A stretch of DNA of 40,189 bases, from the IMG/VR virus record IMGVR_UViG_3300021961_000226, positions 1 to 40,189 of that record; one strand, given 5' to 3'. The notes under the pieces were generated by a model, which was given only the letters and a program-made list of their open reading frames with translations, ran no database searches and was not told where the DNA came from. Below are positions 21,960 through 39,407 of the stretch, piece after piece (within the stretch, counting starts at the first letter, position 1; every line of letters begins with the position of its first letter). The DNA comes from a virus. Position numbers and translations under genes: made by a program.

Positions 21960-22013
21960 CAAACTTAATACTAATTCTAGAATATTCCAAATTTTTTTGT
22001 GATATTTTTCGCC
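21960..22013 (-). promoter_or_regulatory. Promoter with upstream TGGC element
   Basis: On the minus strand, GATTTTGTCTGGC ends at 22011, then 19 nt, TTTGG (21987-21991), 19 nt, TAAGTTTG (21960-21967). This is the first right-half promoter with the phased half-site, here in a variant form (TCTGGC). Confidence 0.72.
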
Positions 22014-22021
22014 AGACAAAA

Positions 22022-22324
22022 TCAGTACATCTCCTCCATCACCTTCTTTGCTTTCTCGAAATGTTTTTCAATCTGTTTTGCAAAAGACACTAAACGTGCT
22101 TTGGTTTTTGCGTATGCAAAGAACTGACAATACTCACTGTCGAAATCGATTCCGTTGCAATTAACATTTCGTTTAATACAATCCTCGAAATCATATGCTG
22201 AATCAAAGTCGTGACTAATCACATCCTTTTTAGGGAAACCAGTGATGGTCCAAGTTGCACCGTCCCAATCTCCTTTGAAGATTGATAAACCAATGTTTGT
22301 TTTGATGTCTTCTGTTCTTTTCAT
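22022..22324 (-). CDS. Hypothetical protein
   Basis: A 100-aa protein, IKTNIGLSIFKGDWDGATWTIT at the start and a charged helix FAKQIEKHFEKAKKVMEEM at the end. It is not recognised. It lies 4 nt from the next gene upstream in transcription order. Confidence 0.7.
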   Translation of the reverse strand: MKRTEDIKTNIGLSIFKGDWDGATWTITGFPKKDVISHDFDSAYDFEDCIKRNVNCNGIDFDSEYCQFFAYAKTKARLVSFAKQIEKHFEKAKKVMEEMY

Positions 22325-22328
22325 GACT

Positions 22329-22814
22329 CTACTTTTTAAATGATGAATTGAATGTTTTGATATTCTCTAAAATCTCAAGGTCCATTGCTTGGGCCAACTT
22401 GTTTTTTGCTTTCTCCATGAAGTCCTTGTTGCCAAGCAAAATCTCGAGGTTACCGTCCGACTCAGGATGGAATTCAATTTTGTCGACAATGACACGGACA
22501 TCTTTTGACTTCTTATCCTTACGGTAGAATGGAGTCCTTGCGTAGATGTACTCACGGACTTGGGTCAACTTGATATCACTAAGGTCCTCACGAATCCTCA
22601 TTTGGATTATAATCTCCTCGAGTGATGCAAGTTTTTCGAACATCACTTTACTCTTAGTAACCTCCTTCTTATACAGGGCTGTAAGTTCTTCCAACTCCTT
22701 GGAATATTTCTTACCACCTCCATGGTTAATGAATTGGTCATATGAACTAAGTTCACTTGAGGACCCTACGATGTCGATGAAGACACCTTCGATTGTTTTA
22801 TTTACTCGTCCCAT
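22329..22814 (-). CDS. Hypothetical helical protein
   Basis: A 161-aa protein with a predicted coiled coil near 37-80 (YSKELEELTALYKKEVTKSK, EEIIIQMRIRED). The C-terminal part contains KDVRVIVDKIEFHP and LEILLGNKDFMEKAKNKLA. No family is recognised. Confidence 0.7.
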   Translation of the reverse strand: MGRVNKTIEGVFIDIVGSSSELSSYDQFINHGGGKKYSKELEELTALYKKEVTKSKVMFEKLASLEEIIIQMRIREDLSDIKLTQVREYIYARTPFYRKDKKSKDVRVIVDKIEFHPESDGNLEILLGNKDFMEKAKNKLAQAMDLEILENIKTFNSSFKK

Positions 22815-22817
22815 AAT

Positions 22818-23078
22818 TTAAAATAGGTTTATTACTGTTCTTAACATGCCAAACAAAATCCGAGGTTCAGCTGTCCCGTCGGAAACTTTTTCTTCAGAGG
22901 TTTCCATTTCTCTTTTTAGTTGAATTGCTTCATCCACCCGTATACGCTGCTCAATTGTTCTTGAGTGGTATTTGGATGAAACAATTACATTTTCTTTTAT
23001 CCTCAATTCGTCAACCCATTCTTGATAGGTTAATTGTACCTGAGGTTCTGCTGTCGACATTACTTTTAAGTTATCCAT
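22818..23078 (-). CDS. Hypothetical protein
   Basis: An 86-aa charged, helical protein (VQLTYQEWVDELRIKENVIV, TIEQRIRVDEAIQLKREMET). Its C-terminal codons RILFGM contain a full GCCAAACAAAATC-type motif (22849-22861), one of the few coding copies. Function is unknown. Confidence 0.65.
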   Translation of the reverse strand: MDNLKVMSTAEPQVQLTYQEWVDELRIKENVIVSSKYHSRTIEQRIRVDEAIQLKREMETSEEKVSDGTAEPRILFGMLRTVINLF

Positions 23079-23080
23079 CG

Positions 23081-23692
23081 TTATTTATTTTCAATTAATT
23101 TTTCTTCGTAAATCTTTTTAATTTCTTTTAGGTCATCTTCGGATACGAAATTAAACTTCTCCGCAAACTCATCTACACTCATACCCTCATCATTTGCGTA
23201 CTCTATTTCATTGTCCAATAATCCTTCCCAAAAGTATTCATCATTGAAGTGATAGATACCTTCCATATAACCATAGTCATTTTCTGTTATGGTTCTATTT
23301 TTAATAATAGTTTTACCGCAGAAATCACAACCAGGTTCTTCGTAATATAACTCAACATCCACACCATACATCTCGTGCAACCTAGCACCAAATCCTATTG
23401 GTGGTGACCACGCCGTGTCGGGATACATTGTAATACACTCATCCTCAAAGTTAAAGTTGCAATCGTCGTAGGATACATCCCACTTGGTGCCAAACCAACC
23501 GATGTTTGATTGGTACCATCCACCTTGTTCGTATTCATCTTTTGACATATCGGGCTCACGACCGATTAAGGACTCAAAAACGATACACTCTTGGGGTTTG
23601 GATTTTGGTACATCCTCAAGAACTTTGGTAAGTAGAGCTATTTGCTCTTTAGTACCTGTTATCTCTATTTTATTTGAACACCAGTTTGGCAT
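23081..23692 (-). CDS. Api92/DUF1281-like phage protein
   Basis: A 203-aa protein beginning MPNWCSNKIEITGTKEQI, the hallmark MPNWCxNxxxIxG start of Api92-like/DUF1281 proteins found in many phages. FTKWDVSYDD-type strands follow (GTKWDVSYDDCNFNFED), then TAWSPPIGF, and a GCDFCG pair near 121-126. The C-terminal 50 residues are acidic and helical. Function is unknown. It is transcribed from a promoter overlapping a long palindrome. Confidence 0.82.
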   Translation of the reverse strand: MPNWCSNKIEITGTKEQIALLTKVLEDVPKSKPQECIVFESLIGREPDMSKDEYEQGGWYQSNIGWFGTKWDVSYDDCNFNFEDECITMYPDTAWSPPIGFGARLHEMYGVDVELYYEEPGCDFCGKTIIKNRTITENDYGYMEGIYHFNDEYFWEGLLDNEIEYANDEGMSVDEFAEKFNFVSEDDLKEIKKIYEEKLIENK

Positions 23693-23720
23693 ATCTCTAA
23701 TTTTTTAAGCTTTCATTATA

Positions 23721-23765
23721 CAAAGGTAAAACTGGGATATCATTTTACCAAATAATATCCCAGTT
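23721..23765 (-). promoter_or_regulatory. Promoter with -33 box inside a perfect 11-bp inverted repeat
   Basis: TTTGG (23748-23752), 19 nt, TACCTTTG (23721-23728). AACTGGGATAT (23730-23740) and ATATCCCAGTT (23755-23765) flank the -33 box with a 14-nt loop. On the + strand the hairpin runs into a T tract, yet no + gene precedes it. It is best read as an operator, possibly also a + strand stop for antisense transcripts. Confidence 0.75.
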
Positions 23766-23773
23766 ATTTTTTT

Positions 23774-24322
23774 TTACCAGGATGACTGATAGTAGAAGTC
23801 ACCATCCCCTTCTTCTTGTAGAAGTGGTTCAATTTGATTGATGGTTTCATCTAAACCATGAACATACCATTGGTCGTACTCCGTTCCACCGAAGAAGAAA
23901 CCGGGTTGAGTTGGAAGTAATTCTTCTGCGAGTTCGGTATCCTCAAACACCTCAACATCGTCATACATCTTTTCTCCGTTCTGCCAACCAACTTCCATCT
24001 TCACGGTCTTCTTACCTGATTTCTCCAAACTCTCTTTCACTTGTTTACAGATATTGACCAACTCCTGAAGTTGACCTCTGTCCACATATGACTCCTGACA
24101 TTGGTCTTCACCACCTTGACAATTCGTTACGAACCATTGGTGAATGTGATTTGATTTTCTCCAATACGCCACACTCTCTGTGATGTATGACACACGTTCA
24201 GGTTTGATGTCGGTGCGAACCTTACTACCCTTTTTAACAGTCACCTTGTGCTGTTGTGATTTGTCTTGGAAGTCCCAGTTCTTAACGTAGGTCTTCTTGC
24301 TGAGATACATGTCTAGTCCCAT
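23774..24322 (-). CDS. MGLDMYL-type phage protein
   Basis: A 182-aa protein beginning MGLDMYLSKKTYV, the signature start of an uncharacterised family common in phages. The middle has VAYWRKSNHIHQWFVTNCQGG near 51-71 and ESYVDRGQL, then a helix, and finally GFFFGGTEYDQWY near 141-153. The order is typical of the family. Function is unknown. Confidence 0.85.
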   Translation of the reverse strand: MGLDMYLSKKTYVKNWDFQDKSQQHKVTVKKGSKVRTDIKPERVSYITESVAYWRKSNHIHQWFVTNCQGGEDQCQESYVDRGQLQELVNICKQVKESLEKSGKKTVKMEVGWQNGEKMYDDVEVFEDTELAEELLPTQPGFFFGGTEYDQWYVHGLDETINQIEPLLQEEGDGDFYYQSSW

Positions 24323-24326
24323 GATT

Positions 24327-24638
24327 TTATTGATTTAAAATGTTAAAAAATTCGATACCTTTTTGAATTAAGTTCTCCGTTCTTTCCAAACGTTTACTAC
24401 TGTCACATACGTAGTTACTCCTATCAGGGGTTACCCCTAAATCTTCCATTGAGAAGTTAAACTCCCACTTACCACCCACAAGTCGTTCACCTGTAAATCG
24501 TTCAACCGCGTTGTAACATTCGTAGGTCATTTTTAATTTACATCCACTTACTCTTGTAGTGTCTTGGATGATTACCACATCATGAGATTTATCTCGACCA
24601 TGTAGTTTACTTCGATAAAGTTCTTTTACTTTTTTCAT
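24327..24638 (-). CDS. Hypothetical protein
   Basis: A 103-aa protein, basic N-terminus KKVKELYRSKLHGRDKSHDV, then TYECYNAVERFTGERLVGGKWEF. It is not recognised. It is co-transcribed with the MGLDMYL gene (4 nt apart). Confidence 0.7.
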   Translation of the reverse strand: MKKVKELYRSKLHGRDKSHDVVIIQDTTRVSGCKLKMTYECYNAVERFTGERLVGGKWEFNFSMEDLGVTPDRSNYVCDSSKRLERTENLIQKGIEFFNILNQ

Positions 24639-24660
24639 GTCTATTGGTTTAATTGTAATA

Positions 24661-24722
24661 CAAAGATATAATGATTATTTCTTTTTACCAAACTTTTTTT
24701 CTACTTTGTTGCCAAACTAAAT
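24661..24722 (-). promoter_or_regulatory. Promoter with phased TTGGC element (N18)
   Basis: Minus strand: ATTTAGTTTGGC (24711-24722), 18 nt, TTTGG (24688-24692), 19 nt, TATCTTTG (24661-24668). The half-site lies inside the last codons of the SprT-like gene. A near copy of the whole promoter lies at 28.02 kb. Confidence 0.82.
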
Positions 24723-25183
24723 TTCGGATTTATCCTGAACTCAAGTTTGAACTTCTCGTTGTAACGGCCACCCGAACACGGACGACATGATGATGACGAC
24801 CATTTACTCAAACGGTTCTTACTATGTTGTTTACCACATCCCACACAGGTCGCAACATATCTTGGTTCAGGGGTTGCAACTATTTTAGAACTGTAACAAC
24901 GACTTCCATTACATCCTATTTCAATTGCTTTCTGTCTCCACACCCAATCATGGTGATGACCTGGTGTTAATGCGTGTGCAATTTCATGTAGAATAGTATT
25001 CTTTACTTCTTTCTCATTGTTTAGTAAAGTCAATACTTTGGATAAAGTAATTTGTTTACTTCTGTACTTACAACATCCGAACCTACGTCTTGCGTTATCA
25101 AATGAAAATCTCCATCCTTTAACATCAAGGTCGTGTCTGTGGATTAGTTTCTCTGCGAGTTGTTGTGCTTTGATGAGTTCCAT
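24701..25183 (-). CDS. SprT-like zinc metallopeptidase
   Basis: A 160-aa SprT/Spartan-like protein. HEIAHALTPGHHHDW at 66-80 gives the HExxH zinc site (H66, E67, H70) with the distal His in HHHDW. A C-terminal zinc ribbon follows (CVGCGKQH, then CRPC). Length fits the minimal SprT family. Spartan enzymes degrade proteins cross-linked to DNA; the phage role is inferred. The last residues KFSLATK are encoded by the promoter element of the downstream gene, so this end may have been reshaped by that cassette. Confidence 0.88.
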   Translation of the reverse strand: MELIKAQQLAEKLIHRHDLDVKGWRFSFDNARRRFGCCKYRSKQITLSKVLTLLNNEKEVKNTILHEIAHALTPGHHHDWVWRQKAIEIGCNGSRCYSSKIVATPEPRYVATCVGCGKQHSKNRLSKWSSSSCRPCSGGRYNEKFKLEFRINPKFSLATK

Positions 25184-25194
25184 GTTGTTTTATT

Positions 25195-25593
25195 TTATGC
25201 CAAACAATTTTCACCTTTTCCTTCTGTGATATAAACGCCACTTTCAATTGTGTGTAATTTCGGTACCCCATCATTATCCATGATATGACCATCGAATATC
25301 CAGTTAGGTTGGACACGTGGATTATAACGAACCCTTCTACTTTCATCCGTGATTGGTTTACCTGTGTAAATCTTAATGTCCTTACATAGTATCCACGCAC
25401 AAACTGTTTTGTGTGCACCATCGAAAATTTTCTGTGCGGTACTCTTGTGGTTTTTAAATGTACACTCGGTCATTACCATTTGTACTTCATCAGGACTATA
25501 GTAGATAACATCACCATCAGGATGTGTTACCTTCCACTTCATGTAGTTTTTACCCTTGCCGAGGTTAAAACGAACTTTAATACTTTTTGACAT
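25195..25593 (-). CDS. Conserved protein, function unknown
   Basis: A 132-aa protein: IKVRFNLGKGKNYMKWKVTHP, then GDVIYYSPDEVQMVMTECTF and KTVCAWILCKDIKIY. I associate this sequence pattern with uncharacterised phage proteins. Three Cys and several His could bind metal. The final codons (ENCLA) contain another GTTTGGC half-site at 25199-25205. Confidence 0.74.
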   Translation of the reverse strand: MSKSIKVRFNLGKGKNYMKWKVTHPDGDVIYYSPDEVQMVMTECTFKNHKSTAQKIFDGAHKTVCAWILCKDIKIYTGKPITDESRRVRYNPRVQPNWIFDGHIMDNDGVPKLHTIESGVYITEGKGENCLA

Positions 25594-25619
25594 ATCGATT
25601 ATTTAATTGGTTTATGATA

Positions 25620-25681
25620 CAAATATAAAACAAATATCTTTATATTCCAAATTTATTTTACACTTTGTTGCCAAACAAAAA
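25620..25681 (-). promoter_or_regulatory. Promoter with phased TTGGC element (N18)
   Basis: Minus strand: TTTTTGTTTGGC (25670-25681), 18 nt, TTTGG (25647-25651), 19 nt, TATATTTG (25620-25627). The half-site begins within the T tract of the preceding terminator. Confidence 0.85.
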
Positions 25682-25703
25682 TCCCCCTGTCACGGGGGAA
25701 TTT
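25676..25703 (-). terminator. Intrinsic terminator
   Basis: Minus-strand stem TTCCCCC/GGGGGA around loop GTGACA, then five T. It ends the 25706 gene and is fused to the next promoter element. Confidence 0.85.
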
Positions 25704-25705
25704 TT

Positions 25706-26308
25706 TTACTCTTTCAAATCAAAAATTAATTCGGTATAATCCGTTGTACCAATCATGACTAACGGACTTTCCTTTTCTATTGAGATAACATCCCTCGCCC
25801 ACGAACCAATAATTTCATTTTCATCTTCTCCCCTAAAATCACCACCACCTTGTCCGTTACCCTCACTAGTTAAAAGTGGTAAAGGGTGAATTTTTACACC
25901 TTCCCAATCTTGAATTTCGGGTACTTTGTTTTTATCTACGAATTGTTTTTTAGTGTGATTTACAATAAAAGGGTAGTCATCCGTTTTTGCAACCTTTGGT
26001 TTGATTTCGTTTTCATCATTACAAAGTGAATACAAATTTGCGTCGTACTCTTTCCCTTCACTAATAACTTTTACCCCCGGTTCTTCATCGGCGTAATCAC
26101 CACCCCACACTACACGACTTTTGTAATGTGACCCTCTTCGGGTTAATTCTTTTTCAAACGTTGAAACAAAGTTGTTTCCTTGATAGGAATGTTCCATTAG
26201 TTTGAGACCATTGTCATATGAATGTGAATACATCCACGCCTTTACGGTTTCGTTTTCACCGTCTTTCGGTTTTTCACCGAGAATAATTGGTTTAAAATAC
26301 TGTCCCAT
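25706..26308 (-). CDS. MGQYFKP-type conserved protein
   Basis: A 200-aa protein beginning MGQYFKPIILGEKP, then WMYSHSYDNGLKLMEHSYQGN at 26-46. I associate this start and the GLKLMEHS box with an uncharacterised family in phages and bacteria. RVVWGGDYADEE near 65-76 and NLYSLCND near 90-97 are other conserved-looking parts. Function is unknown. It forms a single-gene unit with its own promoter and terminator. Confidence 0.78.
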   Translation of the reverse strand: MGQYFKPIILGEKPKDGENETVKAWMYSHSYDNGLKLMEHSYQGNNFVSTFEKELTRRGSHYKSRVVWGGDYADEEPGVKVISEGKEYDANLYSLCNDENEIKPKVAKTDDYPFIVNHTKKQFVDKNKVPEIQDWEGVKIHPLPLLTSEGNGQGGGDFRGEDENEIIGSWARDVISIEKESPLVMIGTTDYTELIFDLKE

Positions 26309-26327
26309 TTTTAATTGATTTAGGATA

Positions 26328-26390
26328 CAAATATAATATGAATAATTTTATATTCCAAATATTTTTTAAACTTTGTTGCCAAACTATTTT
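26328..26390 (-). promoter_or_regulatory. Promoter with phased TTGGC element (N18)
   Basis: Minus strand: AAAATAGTTTGGC (ending at 26378), 18 nt, TTTGG (26355-26359), 19 nt, TATATTTG (26328-26335). Confidence 0.85.
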
Positions 26391-26577
26391 TACCATCCCA
26401 GCCCTGAACGACAGTAACCAGAGCAAATAGCTAGTTTTTCACCAGCTGCTCACCAGCTGCAACAGCGCAGCTTCCAGGTCGATTTTGTTTGGCGTTACAC
26501 AACCCTAATAAAATCAACACTTTACTCACGCCAAACTAAATTAGGGGCCAGCGCGCAACCAGCAGCACAGCTGCGCT
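26378..26577 (-). repeat. Three-half-site regulatory cassette with GC-rich palindromes
   Basis: GCCAAAC at 26378, inverted ATTTTGTTTGGC ending at 26493, and GCCAAACTAAAT at 26530; 36 nt separate the inverted pair. Outside the pair AGCGCAGCT (26464-26472) matches AGCTGCGCT (26569-26577), extending the palindrome. The left arm also repeats CACCAGCTGC twice. The spacer holds AACCCTAATAAAATCAACA, shared with the 31.7 kb cassette. No gene is visible. Confidence 0.8.
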
Positions 26578-26584
26578 TAAGCAT

Positions 26585-26608
26585 AAAAAAACCCCTCATT
26601 GTGAGGGG
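26585..26608 (-). terminator. Intrinsic terminator containing the GP88 stop codon
   Basis: Minus-strand stem CCCCTCA/TGAGGGG with loop CAA, then seven T. The TGA of the gene at 26596 forms the first bases of the 3' arm. Confidence 0.9.
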
Positions 26609-27366
26609 TCTACTACAAACTTGCTATTTTTATCGGGTCGTTTTCGTGTGACTTTATACTTTAACCCCACAATAACATCTTTCTCATCTCGATATCTCAT
26701 ATCATATAAGTCACCATCGATAACCTTTCTACCCCAAAATGTTTTTGGTAATTCTTTTTTGAAAACAACCGCAACTCTTACTCCACCATTCAACATGTTT
26801 ACACAATCGGTGAAGTTGTCTCCACTAAATGAAAATGTCAAATCATAGTTGGTATACTTTTTAACAAGTTCAACTCTCTTCGGTACTTTGGTGTAATCAT
26901 AAAAAGTAACATCGGGAAACAATTGTAAAATGTTTTTTCTTTCGCCGTTTACATCCATATGAAAGGATTCGGGTGTAATGTCTGAAGTGTTATTTAAACG
27001 AACACTGAAGTGAAAACCTAATTTTTCCGCCTTATTTTTTGCGGTGATAATTTCTTCAACCATCCATTCCATAAAATACTGACGTTGTTCAAAAAACAAT
27101 TTTGTCTTTTTAATCCTACTTTCAGTAATCATGTCATTATTCATGTTCATACGATTCATACCAGATTCGTTTAAACATAGTGCGGTACACTCTTTATTCC
27201 TCGTAGGACAAACCTCATAACCACTCAACTTTGCGGGTGCGAGGTAAAGACTGTAGGTTAATTCATCATACTTATACGCCTTAGCGTGTTTAGTAGTCAT
27301 GTTAACAGAACCTAAATAATTGATTCCCGTTTCTCTTTTTGCTTGGGTCTTGTTTCTATATTTCAT
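26596..27366 (-). CDS. GP88 family phage protein
   Basis: A 256-aa protein matching the GP88 family. LYLAPAKLSGYEVCPTRNKEC, then CLNESG near 64-69, RIKKTKLFF, VRLNNTSDIT near 122-131, FYDYTKVPKR near 155-164 and YDLTFSFSGDN near 174-184 are the family's boxes, in order. The three Cys in CPTRNKECTALC resemble a metal or Fe-S cluster site. Function is unproven; the family is found mainly in phages and plasmids. The 3' end runs into its own terminator. Confidence 0.9.
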   Translation of the reverse strand: MKYRNKTQAKRETGINYLGSVNMTTKHAKAYKYDELTYSLYLAPAKLSGYEVCPTRNKECTALCLNESGMNRMNMNNDMITESRIKKTKLFFEQRQYFMEWMVEEIITAKNKAEKLGFHFSVRLNNTSDITPESFHMDVNGERKNILQLFPDVTFYDYTKVPKRVELVKKYTNYDLTFSFSGDNFTDCVNMLNGGVRVAVVFKKELPKTFWGRKVIDGDLYDMRYRDEKDVIVGLKYKVTRKRPDKNSKFVVDPSQ

Positions 27367-27387
27367 AATAGTATTGGTTTAACAATA

Positions 27388-27419
27388 CAAATATAAAACG
27401 AATATTTTTATATTCCAAA
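27388..27419 (-). promoter_or_regulatory. Bacteroidetes-type promoter without a near half-site
   Basis: TTTGG (27415-27419), 19 nt, TATATTTG (27388-27395). No TTGGC at the usual distances; the nearest pair begins about 40 nt further upstream. Confidence 0.82.
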
Positions 27420-27460
27420 TTTATTTTTATTTTTTTTTCACCTGTCGACGGATTCTGGAT

Positions 27461-27486
27461 ATTGGTTGGCCCACGCCAAACTAAAT
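27461..27486 (-). repeat. Compact inverted pair ATTGGTTGGC-CCAC-GCCAAACTAAAT
   Basis: The same inverted half-sites as in other cassettes but only 4 nt apart, giving a near-perfect palindrome. CACCTGTCGACGGATTC lies just before it, as at other cassettes, and CCTGAACAG follows. Confidence 0.8.
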
Positions 27487-27520
27487 CCATCCTGAACAGT
27501 ATCCTGAAAATTTCAGACAT

Positions 27521-27548
27521 AAAAAAACCCCCACATTTCTGTGAGGGT
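27521..27548 (-). terminator. Intrinsic terminator, AGAAAT loop
   Basis: Minus strand CCCTCAC-AGAAAT-GTGGGGG then seven T. It ends the gene at 27554. Confidence 0.92.
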
Positions 27549-27553
27549 TATGA

Positions 27554-27988: not shown

Positions 27989-28012
27989 GTCTTTCATTTT
28001 TAAATTCATATA

Positions 28013-28073
28013 CAAAAATATAATAATTATTTCTTTTTACCAAACTTTTTTCTACTTTGTTGCCAACCTAAAT
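28013..28073 (-). promoter_or_regulatory. Promoter with phased TTGGC element (N17)
   Basis: Minus strand: ATTTAGGTTGGC (28062-28073), 17 nt, TTTGG (28040-28044), 19 nt, TATTTTTG (28013-28020). It is nearly identical over about 55 bp to the promoter at 24.66 kb. CCTGAACCGTGACTC and a closing TTCAGG hairpin lie further upstream (28078-28104). Confidence 0.82.
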
Positions 28074-28106
28074 CCGTCCTGAACCGTGACTCGAAATCTT
28101 CAGGCA

Positions 28107-28135: not shown

Positions 28136-28167
28136 TTCTTGAACCGAACATTAAATCAATATACTAA

Positions 28168-28539: not shown

Positions 28540-28562
28540 ATTCAAGTTTTTGAAGTATGGTA

Positions 28563-28688: not shown

Positions 28689-28712
28689 GCCAAACAACAT
28701 CCAGAATCCGTC
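28689..28712 (-). repeat. Single half-site with CCGTCGACAGGTG
   Basis: GCCAAACAACATCC at 28689, followed by AGAATCCGTCGACAGGTG, the reverse complement of the CACCTGTCGACGGATTCT seen at 27.44 kb. The inverted orientation of the same block supports cassette shuffling. Confidence 0.7.
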
Positions 28713-28744
28713 GACAGGTGAGAACATCTTGTGAATTTTTCGCA

Positions 28745-29625: not shown

Positions 29626-29803
29626 TTTTTTTTAAAGTTTTTTTCAAAAAAGTTTTTCCACATACATCTTTGACTTTATGTATGACAAACATAATAAAGA
29701 TTTTAAGAATATACAAATAAAATACTAGTGTTTTTTGCCAAACAAAATCGTCCAGTCGTCCCGCCTGGTGGATTATAAGTGATTGATTTTTAAAGATTTA
29801 GAC
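29626..29803. other. Non-coding gap with one half-site
   Basis: AT-rich, no gene longer than 16 codons. GCCAAACAAAATC at 29737-29749 is followed by GTCCAGTCGTCCCGCCTGG, an imperfect GC-rich palindrome of the type seen in other cassettes. Nothing else is recognised. Confidence 0.6.
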
Positions 29804-30185: not shown

Positions 30186-30237
30186 CAAATGTATAATTAT
30201 TATTTTATTCTACAAGTTGTTTTTTGCCAACCAATTT
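30186..30237 (-). promoter_or_regulatory. Promoter with phased TTGGC element (about N9)
   Basis: Minus strand: AATTGGTTGGC ending at 30226, 9 nt, CTTGT as -33, 18 nt, TACATTTG (30186-30193). The half-site is one helical turn closer than in the N18 class. It is squeezed into the 74 nt between two genes. Confidence 0.68.
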
Positions 30238-31017: not shown

Positions 31018-31080
31018 CAAATATAATACGAATACTTTTATAATCCAAATTTATTTTAAACTTTGTTGCCAACCTAAATC
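31018..31080 (-). promoter_or_regulatory. Promoter with phased TTGGC element (N18)
   Basis: Minus strand: GATTTAGGTTGGC (31068-31080), 18 nt, TTTGG (31045-31049), 19 nt, TATATTTG (31018-31025). CCTGAACCGGGGTCACC lies just upstream, as at 28.08 and 38.29 kb. Confidence 0.85.
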
Positions 31081-31582: not shown

Positions 31583-31643
31583 CAAATATAGTATCTATTC
31601 TAATATAAACAAAATTTTTTTATACTTTTTCGCCAATCAAATT
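31583..31643 (-). promoter_or_regulatory. Promoter with phased TTGGC element (N18)
   Basis: Minus strand: AATTTGATTGGC (31632-31643), 18 nt, TTTGT (31609-31613), 18 nt, TATATTTG (31583-31590). Confidence 0.82.
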
Positions 31644-31813
31644 ATAGAAGACCAGCTAACAGCGCTGGTTAAACCAGTAAAACTAGCAGAAAGACCTGGA
31701 ATCGCCCAGATGCCGCTCCAGGGAAATTTGTTTGGCATATAGAAACCTAATAAAATCAATACTTTACGGAACGCCAAACAAAATCAGGACCTGGTGTTGT
31801 TGACTGGTCTTCT
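31632..31813 (-). repeat. Three-half-site regulatory cassette with long-range palindrome
   Basis: GCCAATCAAAT at 31632, inverted AAATTTGTTTGGC ending 31736, GCCAAACAAAATC at 31773; the inverted pair is 36 nt apart. AGAAGACCAG (31646-31655) is the exact reverse complement of CTGGTCTTCT (31804-31813), and CAGCGCTGG and CCTGG/CCAGG palindromes fill the left arm. The spacer contains AACCTAATAAAATCAATAC, as at 26.5 kb. No gene. Confidence 0.8.
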
Positions 31814-33621: not shown

Positions 33622-33623
33622 AG

Positions 33624-33902: not shown

Positions 33903-33922
33903 TTTTTGAATGTTTTATGGTA

Positions 33923-33995
33923 CAAATATAAATCTATATTTTGTATAAACAAATTTTTTTTTTACTTTTTTTCAAACTTTGTTGCCAAACTATTT
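33923..33995 (-). promoter_or_regulatory. Promoter with TTGGC element at the long distance (N30)
   Basis: Minus strand: AAAATAGTTTGGC ending at 33984, 30 nt, TTTGT (33949-33953), 18 nt, TATATTTG (33923-33930). The half-site lies about one turn further than in the N18 class. Confidence 0.75.
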
Positions 33996-34038
33996 TCCAC
34001 CTGACGACGGTCATCGTATCCAAGACATACTTATTACT

Positions 34039-34173
34039 ATGATAGAAGGAATTATATACACATTATGGATTGAAGGTTTATTCGTTGTTCTTTATTACAT
34101 GTATAGATTACATAAGGAAATAAAAAAAGATGAAGAAGAATACCGAAATAGATTTTTAGATGATATGATGTAA
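34039..34173 (+). CDS. 44-aa membrane protein on the opposite strand
   Basis: The only + strand candidate gene in the right half. ATG 34039 encodes MIEGIIYTLWIEGLFVVLYYM, one membrane helix, then a charged tail YRLHKEIKKDEEEYRNRFLD. The composition looks genuine and resembles the tiny membrane proteins of the left half. It lies inside a regulatory cassette between two half-sites. No clear + strand promoter is visible. Confidence 0.5.
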   Translation: MIEGIIYTLWIEGLFVVLYYMYRLHKEIKKDEEEYRNRFLDDMM

Positions 34174-34201
34174 GAAAGAGCAGCGCAAACGCAGCTCATG
34201 C

Positions 34202-34281
34202 GCAGCTCCCGATATTGGTTGGCGTTCATAAACCATTGATTTTATTACGTTTCATCCACGCCAAACAAATTCACGAGCTGC
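34202..34281 (-). repeat. Inverted half-site pair with GC-rich flanks
   Basis: ATTGGTTGGC ending 34223 and GCCAAACAAAT from 34260, 36 nt apart. Outer GCAGCTC (34202-34208) matches GAGCTGC (34275-34281). The spacer carries TTGATTTTATTA, the reverse complement of the spacer block at 26.5 and 31.7 kb. Upstream lie repeated GCAGC and GCGCAGCTC blocks. Confidence 0.8.
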
Positions 34282-34312
34282 AACTGTGCAGCTCCAGTGC
34301 ACACATAACAGC

Positions 34313-34341
34313 ATAAAAAAACCCCACATCTCTGTGGGGTC
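34313..34341 (-). terminator. Intrinsic terminator, AGAGAT loop
   Basis: Minus strand CCCCAC-AGAGAT-GTGGGG then seven T. It ends the DUF932 gene. Confidence 0.9.
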
Positions 34342-34367
34342 CCTATTAATTGAGTACCGAACCAATC

Positions 34368-35222
34368 TTAAACCAACTCAACTAACTCCTTAAATATTTC
34401 ACGTTCACGTTGTCCGTAGGTCCCGAACATCTTGTTTTCGGAATTGTCACCTTTGGAAAGTGAGTGAGTAGTATACTTGGTAACCCCACTAAACAGACCC
34501 CAAAGGTTATCTCCTTTCTCTTTCAACTCACCGTTAAGGTCAATATAGAAACGAGAAAGACGATTACGTGTAACGGTAGACACTGACTTCTCATCGTTCA
34601 TGTCAACATCTTTCATGATATTGAACAATGTACGAGTCACCCAATCCTCTTGTTTTTTGGTCATCTTCGTTTCAGAAAGTTTCTTAATGTCTTCGAACAT
34701 TATCTTTTCTTCCTCGAGTACTCCCTCCAAACCTCTACAGATATCATCGATTCTCATCTCCATGTTCTTAGTGTGACGAACTTTCGCATTTAAATTACGG
34801 AAGGCCGCGAAGAATGTGTTCTGACAACTGATAGTAATATTACTAGGTCCGAATGCCAAACTAGTTGTACCATCGAAGGAATTCACACCGGTGATGAAAC
34901 CTTCAACACGGTCGTTACCCAACTTAAGGTCGTTGGACTTCAATTGTAAATAAACCTTTTCACCGTTACCAAAGTAACCTCCTTTGTGAATTGGTAAACC
35001 AACTTGTTGAGATACTTTATCTAGTAACTCAACCATCTGATGATTCTGATACGGAAAGTACCCGTCACCATGTACAGAAAGAACAGTGTTAGTGTCTTCA
35101 CGTACAATTGCTTTACTCTTAGGAACAATGATACCACTTTCAGTAGTAATTGTTTCTTCTCTTACGGTCCAATTTAAACCTACTTGGTCAAGGACTTCTT
35201 GTGTGCGATTTTGATTTGACAT
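34368..35222 (-). CDS. DUF932 (TIGR03299) phage/plasmid-like protein
   Basis: A 284-aa protein with the DUF932 layout: an N-terminal VGLNWTVREETI, VVREDTN-type strand (KAIVREDTNTVLSVHGDGYF near 38-57), PYQNHQMVELLDKVSQQVG, then a sheet with GYFGNGEKVYLQLK, and SLAFGPSNITISCQNTFFAA near 120-139. The family is widespread in phages and plasmids without a settled role. It is a single-gene unit. Confidence 0.9.
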   Translation of the reverse strand: MSNQNRTQEVLDQVGLNWTVREETITTESGIIVPKSKAIVREDTNTVLSVHGDGYFPYQNHQMVELLDKVSQQVGLPIHKGGYFGNGEKVYLQLKSNDLKLGNDRVEGFITGVNSFDGTTSLAFGPSNITISCQNTFFAAFRNLNAKVRHTKNMEMRIDDICRGLEGVLEEEKIMFEDIKKLSETKMTKKQEDWVTRTLFNIMKDVDMNDEKSVSTVTRNRLSRFYIDLNGELKEKGDNLWGLFSGVTKYTTHSLSKGDNSENKMFGTYGQREREIFKELVELV

Positions 35223-35244
35223 ATGGATGTTTTTTAATTTAATA

Positions 35245-35276
35245 CAAATGTAAAACGTTTTGCGTTATAATCCAAA
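35245..35276 (-). promoter_or_regulatory. Bacteroidetes-type promoter
   Basis: TTTGG (35272-35276), 19 nt, TACATTTG (35245-35252). No phased half-site near it; A/T tracts lie upstream. Confidence 0.8.
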
Positions 35277-35335
35277 TAAATCTTTATTTTTTTTTTAAAA
35301 AATTTTACGACCCCGGATTCACCGTCCCATCTCAG

Positions 35336-35436
35336 AAATTGTTTGGCTTGTTTTGTTTAATGTTTAAGACAAAAGATTAAAAAGTGTAATACGTTTATAT
35401 TGATACGTAAGGTGTCATACAACGCCAACCTAAATT
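35336..35436 (-). repeat. Inverted half-site pair with GTGTAATAC and GTGTCATAC
   Basis: AAATTGTTTGGC (35336-35347) and GCCAACCTAAATT (from 35424), 76 nt apart. AGTGTAATACG at about 35383 and GGTGTCATACA at about 35411 lie inside. CCCATCTCAGAAATTG precedes the first site, as in the 38.8 kb cassette. Confidence 0.78.
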
Positions 35437-35473
35437 CACAGTCGGACGAGCAAACGGTCAAAAGTTTTAGCAA

Positions 35474-35505
35474 ATAAAAAAACCCCCACATTTCTGTGAG
35501 GGCTT
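35474..35505 (-). terminator. Intrinsic terminator, AGAAAT loop
   Basis: Minus strand CCCTCAC-AGAAAT-GTGGGGG, T tract. It ends the 35617 gene, about 110 nt after its stop. Confidence 0.9.
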
Positions 35506-35616
35506 TCCACTAACCAATTAAACTAATCTATGAACGACAAACAAAGTGTAATACACTCTATAACCAAAAGGTATCAATTAAAGTTGAGATAATCAAGTGA
35601 TGTCTCTCAAAATAAT
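35506..35616. other. 3' untranslated stretch with palindrome AGTGTAATACACT
   Basis: There is no gene. AGTGTAATACACT at 35545-35557 is a near-perfect palindrome containing the GTGTAATAC word that recurs in the cassettes. It could be an operator or a small RNA structure in the 3' UTR of the 35617 gene. Confidence 0.55.
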
Positions 35617-35970
35617 TTAGTAGTTGTCTTGACTATCAAACCTATTATATGTTCTACCACGAAACACAGGTCGCTTCGGACGCTCTTCGTTGTAGTTATC
35701 TCTCTTGTTTTGATAGAATGAACTATTAATCATATCATCAACGGTTGGAACTACGAAGTCCATATCACAACTTCCATTCATCATCTTCCATTGAATTTCG
35801 TAAATCTCTTTTACACTTTCAACCACATTAACGAAAGTACCATCAATGTAGTCAATCTTAGTTGCAACAGTATCAGTTCTTTTATCGTGAATAGGATAAA
35901 TGTTTTTCACATTTTGAAGGTTCACGAGTGTTGGGGTTCCTTTACCTTGATAGGTGAGTTTAATTAACAT
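35617..35970 (-). CDS. FlbD-like small protein with Arg-rich tail
   Basis: A 117-aa protein. Residues 1-60 (LIKLTYQGKGTPTLVNLQNV, TKIDYIDGTFVNVVESVKEI) follow the FlbD-type pattern: an N-terminal strand, NLxxV, then DGTxxxVxES. The last 35 residues are polar with Arg (ERPKRPVFRGRTYNRF) and probably disordered. Function is unknown; nucleic-acid binding is possible. Confidence 0.65.
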   Translation of the reverse strand: MLIKLTYQGKGTPTLVNLQNVKNIYPIHDKRTDTVATKIDYIDGTFVNVVESVKEIYEIQWKMMNGSCDMDFVVPTVDDMINSSFYQNKRDNYNEERPKRPVFRGRTYNRFDSQDNY

Positions 35971-35997
35971 TTTAGTTTTGAGTTTTTAATTATTGAA

Positions 35998-36049
35998 CAA
36001 ATATACAAACTGATTTTAGAATATACAAATGATTATGCCAATCAAAATC
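35998..36049 (-). promoter_or_regulatory. Promoter with phased TTGGC element (N7)
   Basis: Minus strand: GATTTTGATTGGC (36037-36049), 7 nt, TTTGT (36025-36029), 19 nt, TATATTTG (35998-36005). Confidence 0.78.
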
Positions 36050-36065
36050 GAGGGTTCACGGTCCC

Positions 36066-36314
36066 TCAGATATTTCCCGAGAAGACAAGAAAATTATTGG
36101 GTGGTAATTGGGTATCGATAGGGTCAAAGATTTCAAACCTATCTTCATCTTCGATAACTCCGATATCTCTACCATTGTCCCAAACCACATTGATGACTCC
36201 ACCACCAATGTATCTTATAGTTCCCATTTCTCCTTTTTCAATTGGGTACTTTTCGTTGGTCATTGTTTCAACCATACGAATTCTTTTTCCGATGATTTCT
36301 TTTCCGTATTTCAT
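36066..36314 (-). CDS. DUF4314-like protein
   Basis: An 82-aa protein: IGKRIRMVETMTNEKYPIEKG near 8-28, then GTIRYIGGGVINVVWDNGRD near 31-50 and EDRFEI. This is the DUF4314 pattern, a small SH3-like barrel with the VxWDNGR box. Function is unknown. Confidence 0.83.
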   Translation of the reverse strand: MKYGKEIIGKRIRMVETMTNEKYPIEKGEMGTIRYIGGGVINVVWDNGRDIGVIEDEDRFEIFDPIDTQLPPNNFLVFSGNI

Positions 36315-36335
36315 TTTGTTATTGGTTTATATATA

Positions 36336-36397
36336 CAAATATACAAAACATTTCGTGATATCCAAATTTATTTTAAGAATATTTTGCCAACTTGAGT
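36336..36397 (-). promoter_or_regulatory. Promoter with phased TTGGC element (N19)
   Basis: Minus strand: CAAGTTGGC ending 36386, 19 nt, TTTGG (36362-36366), 18 nt, TATATTTG (36336-36343). Confidence 0.82.
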
Positions 36398-36493
36398 AAA
36401 CTGAAGATGACTTCAGATGGGCCCTGACGGAAAATTGGTTGGCGTGGTTTACAATATATTCAGTCACAATACTTTGTACCGCCAAACAAAATC
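36386..36493 (-). repeat. Three-half-site regulatory cassette
   Basis: GCCAACTTGAG at 36386, a CTGAAGATGACTTCAG hairpin, AGATGGGCCCTGACGG, then AATTGGTTGGC ending 36443, and GCCAAACAAAATC at 36481; 37 nt inside the pair. AGATGGGCCCTGA is shared with the 39.4 kb cassette. Confidence 0.8.
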
Positions 36494-36526
36494 ACGTCTG
36501 GTCCGGGCTGGGCGAAACATCCAAGA

Positions 36527-36557
36527 ATAAAAAAACCCCCACATTTCTGTGAGGGCT
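36527..36557 (-). terminator. Intrinsic terminator, AGAAAT loop
   Basis: Minus strand CCCTCAC-AGAAAT-GTGGGGG, T tract. It ends the 36585 gene. Confidence 0.92.
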
Positions 36558-36584
36558 TCTTTCTTAAACCAAACCAAACCAAAC

Positions 36585-36992
36585 CTATTCGTATTCTTCT
36601 TCGTACAATTCACCCGTTAGGTACATGTCAAAAGTTTTTACTTCACCAACCAAAACTTCTGTTACTTTCTCAATTAGTTCTTGACTAATACGTTTTACTC
36701 CGTATTCTTCCCTAACTTTTTTCTTTGAGACAAATGTCCAACCAACTTGTCCACTATCCCAAGGACAACTGAACCCTGTGGTATTCATTGTAATTCCCGA
36801 GTGGTCGTACAAGTAAAGTGGTAAAATAACACAAACATCATTTTCTTTGATAATTGCGTTCTTCATTTCTTCCCAACCATTGTAGTCGTTGTGGTTGTAA
36901 TTGTGGTCGTCTCCAAGGTCGTAACGTCCATGAAAACAAACCATTTTTCCGAGGTTATCCCAACTGCGGGGATTGTCAATGTCTTTGTACAT
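36585..36992 (-). CDS. Conserved phage-type protein
   Basis: A 135-aa protein starting at ATG 36992 (MYKDIDNPRSWDNLGKMVCF); a frame from 37031 runs through the promoter. FHGRYDLGDDHNYN near 20-33 and LPLYLYDHSGITMNTTGFSC near 60-79 with PWDSGQVGW are boxes of an uncharacterised family I associate with phages. Function is unknown. Confidence 0.82.
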   Translation of the reverse strand: MYKDIDNPRSWDNLGKMVCFHGRYDLGDDHNYNHNDYNGWEEMKNAIIKENDVCVILPLYLYDHSGITMNTTGFSCPWDSGQVGWTFVSKKKVREEYGVKRISQELIEKVTEVLVGEVKTFDMYLTGELYEEEYE

Positions 36993-37017
36993 AATTGTTT
37001 TATTTAATTGGTTAATA

Positions 37018-37069
37018 CAAATATATAACAATTTTATTCGTTTACCAAATCTTTTTTGCCAAACTTTAT
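37018..37069 (-). promoter_or_regulatory. Promoter with phased TTGGC element (N8), inside a gene
   Basis: Minus strand: AAAGTTTGGC ending 37058, 8 nt, TTTGG (37045-37049), 19 nt, TATATTTG (37018-37025). Half-site and -33 box encode the last residues of the 49-aa gene upstream. Confidence 0.75.
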
Positions 37070-37183
37070 TCGTCTGTACGTCTTTCCCGAAGGTTTCGTT
37101 TTCTGTAACATCTTCCTACGGATAATTTGTGCGACGTGTCGTTGAGACAAACCACATAAACTATTCTTCTTTTGAGTATCCAT
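37034..37183 (-). CDS. Basic 49-aa protein
   Basis: MDTQKKNSLCGLSQRHVAQI at the start, then IRRKMLQKTKPSGKTYRRIK and FGKKDLVNE. It is strongly basic, and the SQRHVAQIIRRKML helix could bind nucleic acid. The start overlaps the 3' end of the upstream 51-aa gene in another frame by 23 nt. The final codons double as the TTGGC element and -33 box of the next promoter. Confidence 0.5.
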   Translation of the reverse strand: MDTQKKNSLCGLSQRHVAQIIRRKMLQKTKPSGKTYRRIKFGKKDLVNE

Positions 37184-37316
37184 TTTCTAACTCTTTAATT
37201 TTTGTTTCAAATTCATTGGTCATTTCATCAATATCAAATTGAGGTAAACCAGTTTCTTCATCAATGTAATAGTAAACACCGATTTTAATTTCCGTTGGAA
37301 TTTTGTTGTTGTCCAT
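37161..37316 (-). CDS. Small acidic protein
   Basis: A 51-aa protein: MDNNKIPTEIKIGVYYYIDE, then ETGLPQFDIDEMTNEFETKI and a short acidic end. It is well formed, has its own promoter and a start 20 nt after the -7 box. Function is unknown. Confidence 0.62.
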   Translation of the reverse strand: MDNNKIPTEIKIGVYYYIDEETGLPQFDIDEMTNEFETKIKELENGYSKEE

Positions 37317-37336
37317 AATGATTAAGTTTTATTATA

Positions 37337-37368
37337 CAAATATAAATCTATTTTGATTATAAACCAAA
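37337..37368 (-). promoter_or_regulatory. Bacteroidetes-type promoter
   Basis: TTTGG (37364-37368), 19 nt, TATATTTG (37337-37344). No phased half-site at the usual distances. Confidence 0.8.
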
Positions 37369-37400
37369 TTTTTTTTCATACCTGTCGTCGGATTATGAAA

Positions 37401-37461
37401 ATTGGTTGGCTAATAGTGTAATACAACTTTACATAGTGTCATACAGTGCCAACCAAAATTA
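37401..37461 (-). repeat. Inverted half-site pair with GTGTAATAC and GTGTCATAC
   Basis: ATTGGTTGGC (37401-37410) and GCCAACCAAAATT (from 37449), 38 nt apart. AGTGTAATACA and AGTGTCATACAGT lie inside. ACCTGTCGTCGGATTATG precedes the pair, as at other cassettes. Confidence 0.82.
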
Positions 37462-37498
37462 GGTTCTGCGCGCAACAGACGAACAATCTTTCGAGCAA

Positions 37499-37530
37499 TA
37501 AAAAAGGGTAACATTTCTGCTACCCTTTCC
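37499..37530 (-). terminator. Intrinsic terminator, AGAAAT loop on a different stem
   Basis: Minus strand GGGTAGC-AGAAAT-GTTACCC, then six T. The stem differs from the common one but the loop is kept. Confidence 0.9.
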
Positions 37531-37552
37531 ACCACAACCGATGTTAAACCAA

Positions 37553-38101
37553 TTAAATCGACAAGTAGAGGCGGTTGTGATTATACAATGCAACTGCGTT
37601 TTCTTCCGCAATTTTACCATACTCTCTTTTTATGTTTTCGTACATAATGTCTTGTGGTTCGTTGATACACTCCGATAAAAGTTCACAAAAACCATAGTTA
37701 CTTTCATCAACTTCATCTTGTTTAGTACCAGGTAAACCACAATAGTATGCCTCCCCAACTTCGGAGATAAACATTCCACTATAAAAACCTTTTAGTCCAA
37801 ATTGGTTAACGAATTGGTCTGCGTTACACCAAATAAAGATTGAGTTATCTTTTTTAGATAAAATGTCAACCATTGATTGGTCAATAATAAAACCTCCCGT
37901 TTTAGGAAATTGTCCAACCGAGAACAACCCCATAGGTGCGCCGTGTCCACACATCATTACTCGGTCGTGTTCTTCAATCAGTTTTCGGAGTTCGTCTTTT
38001 GTTACACCACCCGTAATAATTGTCTTATTCGGTATTGGATTGTACACAATATCCAAGAATTGTGTTGATTTGTCTTTTGGGTGAATTACCAATGTTTTCA
38101 T
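37553..38101 (-). CDS. Conserved protein, possible clan CD (caspase-fold) relative
   Basis: A 182-aa protein. DRVMMCGHGAPMGLFSVGQF at 46-65 places a His-Gly after a hydrophobic strand, and SIFIWCNADQFV at 87-98 places a Cys after the next. This is the order of the His/Cys dyad (H53, C92) in caspase-like clan CD peptidases. FIIDQSMVDIL lies between. GFYSGMFISEVGEAYYCGL follows. I know similar GHGxPxGLF proteins only as uncharacterised. Peptidase activity is an inference; the pocket residues are not identifiable. Confidence 0.6.
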   Translation of the reverse strand: MKTLVIHPKDKSTQFLDIVYNPIPNKTIITGGVTKDELRKLIEEHDRVMMCGHGAPMGLFSVGQFPKTGGFIIDQSMVDILSKKDNSIFIWCNADQFVNQFGLKGFYSGMFISEVGEAYYCGLPGTKQDEVDESNYGFCELLSECINEPQDIMYENIKREYGKIAEENAVALYNHNRLYLSI

Positions 38102-38121
38102 TTATTGTCGATTTTAGAATA

Positions 38122-38183
38122 CAAAGATATAACGAGTTTTTTATTTTACCAAATTTATTTTTGTATTTGTTGCCAATCTACCA
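38122..38183 (-). promoter_or_regulatory. Promoter with phased TTGGC element (N18)
   Basis: Minus strand: GGTAGATTGGC ending 38172, 18 nt, TTTGG (38149-38153), 19 nt, TATCTTTG (38122-38129). Confidence 0.84.
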
Positions 38184-38216
38184 AATTTTCTGAGGAGAAG
38201 ACGCTGCGTCGGAAGA

Positions 38217-38288
38217 AATTAGGTTGGCTCACTTTACATATTAGTAGGTTTTTACTTTACACTTTGCAAGATTCCGCCAACCAAAATT
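38217..38288 (-). repeat. Inverted half-site pair, 47-nt spacer
   Basis: ATTAGGTTGGC ending 38228 and GCCAACCAAAATT from 38276. The 47-nt spacer is about one turn longer than the usual 36-38. AGACGCTGCGTCGG forms a small hairpin on the left. CCTGAACCGTGACTC and GTCAGG form another on the right. Confidence 0.8.
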
Positions 38289-38320
38289 CCCCCTGAACCG
38301 TGACTCATTGTCGTCAGGTA

Positions 38321-38352
38321 AATAAAAAACCCCCACTTTTCAGTGAGGGTTT
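38321..38352 (-). terminator. Intrinsic terminator
   Basis: Minus strand CCCTCACT-GAAA-AGTGGGGG, T tract. It ends the 38358 gene. Confidence 0.9.
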
Positions 38353-38357
38353 CAAAC

Positions 38358-38672
38358 TTAATCTTCAAACTCAAACTCAATTCTTGGGATACCCAACAAC
38401 TCATAATCTTCAAACTCACCCCAATCGGGTTCGGTGTAGTAACGATAACGAATATCCATTGTACCATTTTCGTTCCACCAAATACGGACTTGGGTTCTGT
38501 GGTCGGATATGAAAAAACCTTCCATCCTACTCAACTGATGAATTAGAGGATTCAACACATCATCATCAATAGATACTTTTTCGTTTTCAATAACGAAATC
38601 ATCTACACATTCACATTCCCCATTATAGTCAATGTAAAAATCAATGTAACATTCTTTGTTTGTAGTTGTCAT
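38358..38672 (-). CDS. Hypothetical acidic protein
   Basis: A 104-aa protein: ECYIDFYIDYNGECECVDDF, HQLSRMEGFFISDHRTQVRI, then WWNENGTMDIRYRYYTEPD and EDYELLGIPRIEFEF. It is beta-rich with no recognised family. It is a single-gene unit. Confidence 0.72.
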   Translation of the reverse strand: MTTTNKECYIDFYIDYNGECECVDDFVIENEKVSIDDDVLNPLIHQLSRMEGFFISDHRTQVRIWWNENGTMDIRYRYYTEPDWGEFEDYELLGIPRIEFEFED

Positions 38673-38700
38673 ACGTTTTCAATTAATTGGTTTAACAATA

Positions 38701-38731
38701 CAAATATAAAACAATTCTCAATATAAACAAA
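38701..38731 (-). promoter_or_regulatory. Bacteroidetes-type promoter
   Basis: TTTGT (38727-38731), 18 nt, TATATTTG (38701-38708). No TTGGC close by; TGTATTACAG lies about 17 nt upstream of the -33 box. Confidence 0.78.
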
Positions 38732-38793
38732 TTTTTTTTTTAAAATATTCTGTAATACAATCATACCTGTCGTCTGTACCTTCCCATCTCAGA

Positions 38794-38855
38794 AATTGGT
38801 TGGCACACTTTGGTTTATTTTAACCAAACTATTCCGTTCACGCCAACCAAAATTT
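38794..38855 (-). repeat. Inverted half-site pair, 37-nt spacer
   Basis: AAATTGGTTGGC ending 38804 and GCCAACCAAAATTT from 38842. The spacer contains TTTGGTTTATTTTAACCAAA, itself nearly palindromic, and shared in part with the 39.4 kb cassette. GTTGCG...CGCAAC lies to the right. Confidence 0.82.
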
Positions 38856-38895
38856 CACATGTTGCGCTGCTGTCGACGCAACGTAACCTTCAGAG

Positions 38896-38930
38896 CAAAA
38901 AAAATCCCCGACTTTCGCCGAGGACTTTCC
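38896..38930 (-). terminator. Intrinsic terminator
   Basis: Minus strand GTCCTCGGC-GAAA-GTCGGGGAT, then eight T. It ends the 38952 gene. Confidence 0.85.
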
Positions 38931-38951
38931 ATTCATGAACCAACAAACCAA

Positions 38952-39323
38952 TTACCTACCAAACCTTGTACTTAACGCGACATCAAACGCGGACATGAAC
39001 TTCACTTGATTTTTGATTTCTTCGATTGAAAGTTTGGTGTCTCCATTATCACCAGTTTCATCATCGAAACCCATAATCAATCCATTACCCGCTAAAGGTT
39101 GAGGATAATTCCCCAACTTAAAGAACTTTGTGTCATCATTCATGTACATCAATCCCTCTTCATCTACATAGACATCGTTCTCTTCGTTGTATTGAACTAC
39201 TTCAAAGGTTGAACATTTAAGGTGTCCATAGATACTTGGTAACTGACTACCATTTTCGTTTCTAACAACTTCTACTTCTGAAATTGTTTTGTTTTCAACG
39301 TCGATTAAAATTGCTCTTGACAT
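38952..39323 (-). CDS. Conserved phage-type protein, DUF3846-like
   Basis: A 123-aa protein starting at ATG 39323 (MSRAILIDVENKTISEVEVV); a frame from 39347 runs into the promoter. It has LIDVENKTISEVEV, IYGHLKCSTFEVVQ, VYVDEEGLMYM, FKLGNYPQPLAGNGLIMGFDD. The VDEEGL and PLAGNGLxxG boxes recall DUF3846-type proteins; the family name is tentative. Function is unknown. Confidence 0.72.
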   Translation of the reverse strand: MSRAILIDVENKTISEVEVVRNENGSQLPSIYGHLKCSTFEVVQYNEENDVYVDEEGLMYMNDDTKFFKLGNYPQPLAGNGLIMGFDDETGDNGDTKLSIEEIKNQVKFMSAFDVALSTRFGR

Positions 39324-39349
39324 AATTTGTTTTTTTTGGTTTAACAATA

Positions 39350-39407
39350 CAAATATAAAACGATTATTTAATTATACCAAATTTATTTTCATCTTTTTTG
39401 CCAACTT
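39350..39407 (-). promoter_or_regulatory. Promoter with phased TTGGC element (N18)
   Basis: Minus strand: GTAAGTTGGC ending 39400, 18 nt, TTTGG (39377-39381), 19 nt, TATATTTG (39350-39357). Confidence 0.85.

Follow-up and report, generated by a model that had tools for sequence, protein, structure and literature searches.

What is the function of a short TTGGC-bearing sequence that recurs upstream of the promoters of a phage genome, and which factor does it serve? The question is raised by the 40,189-base virus record IMGVR_UViG_3300021961_000226 of IMG/VR (the window, analysed over its whole length), in which genes lie on the plus strand to ~19 kb and on the minus strand from 19.4 kb to the end. 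A first-pass annotation had noted TTGGC upstream of right-half promoters at distances one helical turn apart and had proposed an activator or co-regulator dedicated to one transcription class. In our reading, to which we give a probability of roughly 0.6, this element (the box) would be a double-stranded DNA site of one sequence-specific regulator serving a single transcription block, lineage-specific and carried in mobile cassettes. The regulator is probably a class-I-like activator, and we infer that it is phage-encoded.

The block was compared with those of relatives A (G006, 288 kb), B (G011+G012), C (G005), D (G015), E (G018), F (G019), X (G017, 310 kb) and N (G016). Counts of promoter phasing come from seven genomes, the window (W) and relatives A–F. 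An assembly of relative B with a 369-nucleotide (nt) duplication was used for the box consensus, orthology and the pair list, and an assembly without it for the phasing and spacing statistics. Promoters were called with the strict pattern TTTG-N17-20-TAnnTTTG, and the gap is the distance in nt between the GGC of the box and the -33 promoter element. The earlier assignment of these promoters to the Bacteroidetes sigma-A type stands. A pattern scan for box-promoter couples matched many other contigs, and the box-bearing phages are a family of giant (jumbo), uncultivated phages with Bacteroidetes-type promoters, known here from metagenomes alone.

The box consensus derived from intergenic sites, AWWTWGKTTGGCR, is asymmetric. 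On its 5' side, in either box orientation, lies a G+C-rich arm of ~22 nt in which words such as CCTGA/TCAGG are over-represented; as hairpins, the arms fold no better than shuffled sequences (mean z -0.05), and comparison with known RNA families gave no Rfam match at gathering score. The word GKTTGGC occurs 46 times in the window, nearly always in the right half, against 4.1 expected (~11x), and none of 100 shuffles reached 46. Among the boxes of the window, 31 of 41 are on the minus strand, and the 10 reversed copies belong to pairs. Relative A has every one of its 53 strict boxes, and 23 of its 50 consensus promoters, within 210.0–236.5 kb of the 288 kb genome, which bears out the proposal of a dedicated site in one transcription block. 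The block is one stretch of ~20–26 kb of small genes with dozens of box copies. Judged from sequence alone, sigma-54 promoters (no -12 GC element) and integron attC sites (no RYYYAAC/GTTRRRY order) were rejected as descriptions of these signals.

Boxes are tied to promoters in the window far beyond chance: at 13 of the 21 strict right-half promoters a TTGGC lies in the 40 nt upstream, compared with 0.32 in shuffled sequence (at most 4), an association larger than first described. Gaps at these 13 promoters are 7–8, 17–19 or 30 nt. At five further window promoters a proximal box is missing, and an inverted TTGGC...GCCAA pair stands upstream instead. The left-half promoters had been said to lack the site, and the three on the plus strand indeed lack both TTGGC and GCCAA for 250 nt around. 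The promoter-linked sites, all on the minus strand, are:

21960–22016: promoter with degenerate box TCTGGC, gap 19, as read in the sequence
24661–24722: box and promoter, gap 18
25620–25681: box abutting a terminator hairpin, and promoter, gap 18
26328–26389: box and promoter, gap 18
28013–28073: box and promoter, gap 17
29686–29748: box and promoter, gap 19; absent from the first-pass list
30199–30237: box near 30.2 kb; downstream promoter off the strict pattern
31018–31079: box and promoter, gap 18
31583–31643: box and promoter, gap 18
33923–33995: box and promoter, gap 30
35998–36048: box and promoter, gap 7
36336–36397: box and promoter, gap 19
37018–37069: box and promoter, gap 8
38122–38183: box and promoter, gap 18
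39350–39411: box and promoter, gap 18

The distances given in the first-pass annotation were recovered at 28.04 kb (17 nt), at 24.69, 25.65, 26.36, 31.05, 31.61, 38.15 and 39.38 kb (18 nt) and at 36.36 kb (19 nt); its 7–9 nt class is represented by gaps of 7–8 at 36.03 and 37.05 kb, and its 29–30 nt class by a gap of 30 at 33.95 kb. Three entries required correction: the site at 21.99 kb (gap 19) reads TCTGGC and not TTGGC, the promoter at 30.2 kb departs from TTTG, and the AP2-like gene near 19.77 kb has no clear paired -7 box. The site at 29.74 kb (gap 19) had been missed.

Across the seven genomes, 80 couples were found with gaps of 7–9 (18 couples), 17–19 (43), 28–30 (17), 40 (1) and 55 (1) nt, so that 79 of 80 lie in the classes 7–9, 17–19, 28–30 or 40, with one shared box orientation. 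For 40 dereplicated couples the Rayleigh R at 10.5 bp is 0.93, the largest value in 100,000 uniform draws being 0.52. Outside the window, the three classes account for all 29 dereplicated couples with a gap of at most 35 (binomial p 3e-16, 9 of 31 positions allowed), although the phasing p-values are optimistic because orthologous promoters are not fully independent. The distance classes and the helical phasing to RNA polymerase proposed from the window thus hold in other genomes. The gap class differs between genomes for orthologous genes, always by whole helical turns (18, 29, 19, 29, 29, 18 and 19 in the W25 family; 18, 9, 9 and 29 in the W01 family), and these switches agree with helical phasing despite the non-independence of orthologs. 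No reverse box occurs in the 36 nt adjoining true promoters; the sole reverse box near a promoter goes with a promoter match that is spurious.

With the sigma-A -7 box taken to lie at -12 to -5 (PMC9723704), box centres fall near -50, -60 and -71, close to the known activator positions of CRP at -61.5 and, at aer, -49.5 (PMC2859248). A regulator bound there would share a helix face with RNA polymerase and would most likely activate, much as a class I activator contacts the alpha C-terminal domains across an A-rich spacer; the box-promoter spacers are 72% A. Boxes resemble class I sites such as those of CRP (PMC2859248) in these centres, in standing upstream of the -35/-33 element at helical-turn steps and in the same-face requirement, but they are asymmetric, fixed in orientation and free of a CRP motif.

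Repression is the alternative that this geometry bears on most directly. A phage silencer on the boxes could keep the block off, as in cluster A mycobacteriophages, whose stoperators are tens of 13-bp asymmetric sites mainly in one orientation (PMC6550527, PMC9283540). The boxes are similar in number, in 13-bp asymmetry and in sequence divergence between relatives, and some stand at operon junctions; their dominant orientation is that of transcription, with 10 of the 41 window boxes reversed and in pairs. In contrast to stoperators, which are genome-wide and joined by promoter-region operators, all boxes of relative A lie in 26 kb, and boxes stand outside promoter cores, upstream of promoters at helical steps or in convergent pairs. 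Of 253 strict boxes, 144 are 5–260 nt upstream of a consensus promoter and 109 elsewhere, with none in a promoter core and none in the next 80 nt. Of the proteins examined, none was recognised as a repressor, no genome-wide repressor search having been made. We regard this explanation as unlikely.

The promoter-proximal arrangement emphasised in the first pass exists but is one of several, alongside convergent pairs, tandem arrays and operon-junction copies. Convergent pairs in the window (no strand assigned unless given) are:

26482–26541: spacing 41
27388–27486, minus strand: spacing 9 (TTGGC-N4-GCCAA), then GP88 gene promoter without proximal box
31725–31784: spacing 41
34212–34271: spacing 41
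35336–35435: spacing 81, upstream of DUF932 gene promoter (no proximal box)
36432–36492: spacing 42
37399–37459: spacing 42
38217–38287: spacing 52; inner segment in the opposite orientation to that in relative A
38793–38853: spacing 42
39445–39504: spacing 41
39950–40006: spacing 38

Spacings of TTGGC...GCCAA pairs cluster at 9, 19–21, 28–33, 39–43 and 50–52, with a long class at 77–82, one pair at 94 and short exceptions at 14 and 15. Their R is 0.71 (n = 54 dereplicated; null maximum 0.44), or 0.61 without the 39–43 class, and in the distant genome X boxes are mostly arranged as convergent pairs. By eye, no phase is evident between convergent pairs and the promoter. Two regulator copies on a pair would probably contact each other across whole helical turns, as a dimer at spacing 9 and through small loops at spacings 20–51. 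Sequence alone seldom reveals helical quantisation in two independent geometries.

Many pairs also contain a second recurrent word, GTATKACA (TGTATTAC/TGTCATAC), for instance at 37406–37452, 35343–35428 and 39957–39999; it occurs at 19.0–19.3 kb as well, is enriched around the AP2-like gene of other lineages and is possibly the site of a second factor. An IHF/HU site was considered for WATCAANNNNTTR, found inside some 41-spaced pairs, and was set aside: the copies are members of a single repeated family and no phage-encoded HU/IHF turned up, though the lead remains.

Bacteroidales invertible promoters have inverted repeats adjoining promoters and an inner segment found in both orientations, and the pairs are similar on both counts. 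The inner segment is better matched inverted than direct at three orthologous loci (A21787/B20598 and A21787/W13655; A17120/W8412; A9888/W1909), whereas other loci are collinear. Unlike in invertible promoters, consensus promoters are absent from the inner segments, which mostly measure less than 50 nt, a length too small for ordinary inversion by a recombinase.

These elements combine in an intergenic cassette composed of terminator, box pair, box and promoter; terminator-like sites number 30 against 11.9 in shuffles, along with the 21 right-half consensus promoters. Where relatives A and B differ by gained or lost genes, the junctions share ~20–73 nt of cassette sequence, which holds the terminator-arm-box or box-promoter part. 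By inspection, a TTGGC cassette is present at 7 of 7 gene-indel junctions, and by a strict script at 4 of 7; at the three that failed, a box with a slightly degenerate flank lies at the segment edge. W14/C19 and W00/C06 are 96% identical, while most other W/C pairs are at 52–84%, so that orthology reveals a mosaic. Recombination between cassettes would swap genes plus their control signals, and the data suggest that genes are exchanged as such ready-made cassettes.

One could instead regard the boxes as recombinase-used cassette boundaries, with promoter proximity a by-product. The A/B indel breaks within cassettes, the inverted inner segments and the 96% identical genes shared between distant members would suit this view, but the shared cassette sequence at the junctions is explained by ordinary homologous recombination, and strict promoter phasing requires a role in transcription; we consider it quite improbable. 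A parallel is offered by the promoter-early stem-loop cassettes (PeSLs) of T4-like phages, reportedly described by Arbiol in 2010 and Comeau in 2014 and covered in PMC4503421. As in PeSLs, a predicted host-type promoter and a terminator stem-loop lie between genes, indel breakpoints fall in the cassettes, and the plastic region of small genes shows a link to gene shuffling. The cassettes described here differ in adding a phased protein-type box, often as an inverted pair with G+C-rich arms, and in using Bacteroidetes sigma-A promoters; the likeness drawn here is one of architecture.

The box itself changes between lineages. Relative N keeps orthologs of W03, DUF932, ParB-like, W29, W30, W32, W35 and the AP2-like gene, and its entire 70.8 kb record contains a single match to AWWTWGDTTGGCR, which lies outside the block. 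Its boxes have changed in concert: the top over-represented 9-mer, TTGTTTCGC (13 against 0.2 expected), occupies the same block, both as pairs and on either side of the AP2-like gene. A wider search for the AP2-like gene returned 49 loci, around which the leading word is TGTTTGGC in many, TTACTGGG in L135–L140, TGACTGGC in L141 and TCTGTGGC in L147; no box could be named around the gene in L151–L154, L172, L174, L178, L181 and L182. Genomes with a named box have at least one in the 500 nt that precede the AP2-like gene, and most also have one downstream. Different lineages employ different boxes in the same block, namely TTTCGC, TTACTGGG, GACTGGC and CTGTGGC in those related to the TTTGGC phages. 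A pattern scan for TTTCGC pairs matched only N plus apparent chance matches. In L135, L138, L139 and L140, TTACTGGG occurs in ~30 copies per 20 kb, often in tight convergent pairs 12–25 apart.

In nearly all relatives examined, boxes flank the AP2-like gene. The corresponding features of the window, all on the minus strand, are:

19333–19345: box downstream of the AP2-like gene and terminator
19440–19712: AP2-like gene, with a K/A/P-rich tail and a three-strand-one-helix domain
19793–19945: tandem array of four boxes upstream of the gene (TTGGC at 19938, 19893, 19845 and 19798; steps of 45, 48 and 47 nt)

For the AP2-like protein, neither 50,697 GenBank phage records nor GTDB genomes contained a match, and a fold search gave no significant match. 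As the box binder it was at first favoured by a change of HH to DN that accompanies TTTGGC to TTTCGC in relative N; this reading was later weakened because L135, L141 and L145 share DN yet carry other boxes, and the protein is only a candidate for the box-binding factor. The other core neighbour, W32, yielded a good structure model with a predicted local distance difference test (pLDDT) score of 86, for which no structural relative was found.

The tandem and inverted phased arrays, the lysine-rich tail of the AP2-like protein and the ParB-like gene in the block could also point to nucleoid or segregation architecture, with a histone-like AP2 or ParB-like protein organising phage DNA through the boxes. 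We hold this to be highly improbable: the ParB-like protein of relative N is 65% kept although its box differs, and promoter phasing is left unexplained. More tentatively than the activator reading itself, and at somewhat less than even odds, we propose that the phages encode a regulon whose single trans-acting factor and dozens of dispersed boxes, helix-quantised to promoters and to each other in mobile gene cassettes, shift specificity together by lineage (TTTGGC, TTTCGC, TTACTGGG, GACTGGC, CTGTGGC).

Several observations weigh against a phase-dependent activator with lineage-specific boxes. Boxes at operon junctions are the main feature that the activator model leaves unexplained: several boxes without a nearby promoter stand 21–39 nt ahead of the next ATG, inside operons, where a -60 activator makes no obvious sense, and of the 96 same-orientation boxes that have no consensus promoter nearby, 35 lie in coding sequence. 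Two such junction boxes, without consensus promoter, are in the window:

22847–22859, minus strand: operon-junction box, 39 nt ahead of the next ATG
25198–25210, minus strand: operon-junction box, 21 nt ahead of the next ATG

The model likewise does not explain the G+C-rich arm, and the block has box-free promoters as well (W30 family). The phasing of pairs is less pronounced in distant clades (R = 0.46 and p = 0.01 for a list entered by hand), and promoter phasing was not demonstrable for the alternative boxes, which gave few promoter matches. Finally, the AP2-like domains of L134, L135 and L141 are >80% identical despite differing boxes, and the protein therefore does not obviously set box specificity.

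New here are the box consensus with its G+C arm, the convergent pairs quantised at 9, 20, 30, 41 and 51, the tandem arrays (45–48 nt steps) at the AP2-like gene, some operon-junction boxes, the cassette-bounded indels and the lineage boxes; the gene-swapping role of the cassette and the lineage change of the box go beyond the first-pass view. The result is a predicted base-by-base regulatory code for these giant phages. Close relatives with different box types provide a natural experiment in how a regulator and its dozens of sites change together, and the cassette structure suggests how such phages may trade small genes with ready-made control signals.

Three further observations concern the right half. 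The promoter of the Api92-like gene (W30; 23730–23765) is box-free and lies inside a 16-pair hairpin (AACTGGGATATTATTTGGTAAAATGATATCCCAGTT), and the orthologous promoter is also without a nearby box in A, B, C, D and E. Two 36-nt inverted repeats (27435–27470 and 28689–28724), 92% complementary and 1.2 kb apart, end in boxes and enclose two genes. The protein encoded at 25195–25593 matches Pfam Phage_L5_gp82 (E 3.8e-8), a family that takes its name from a mycobacteriophage.

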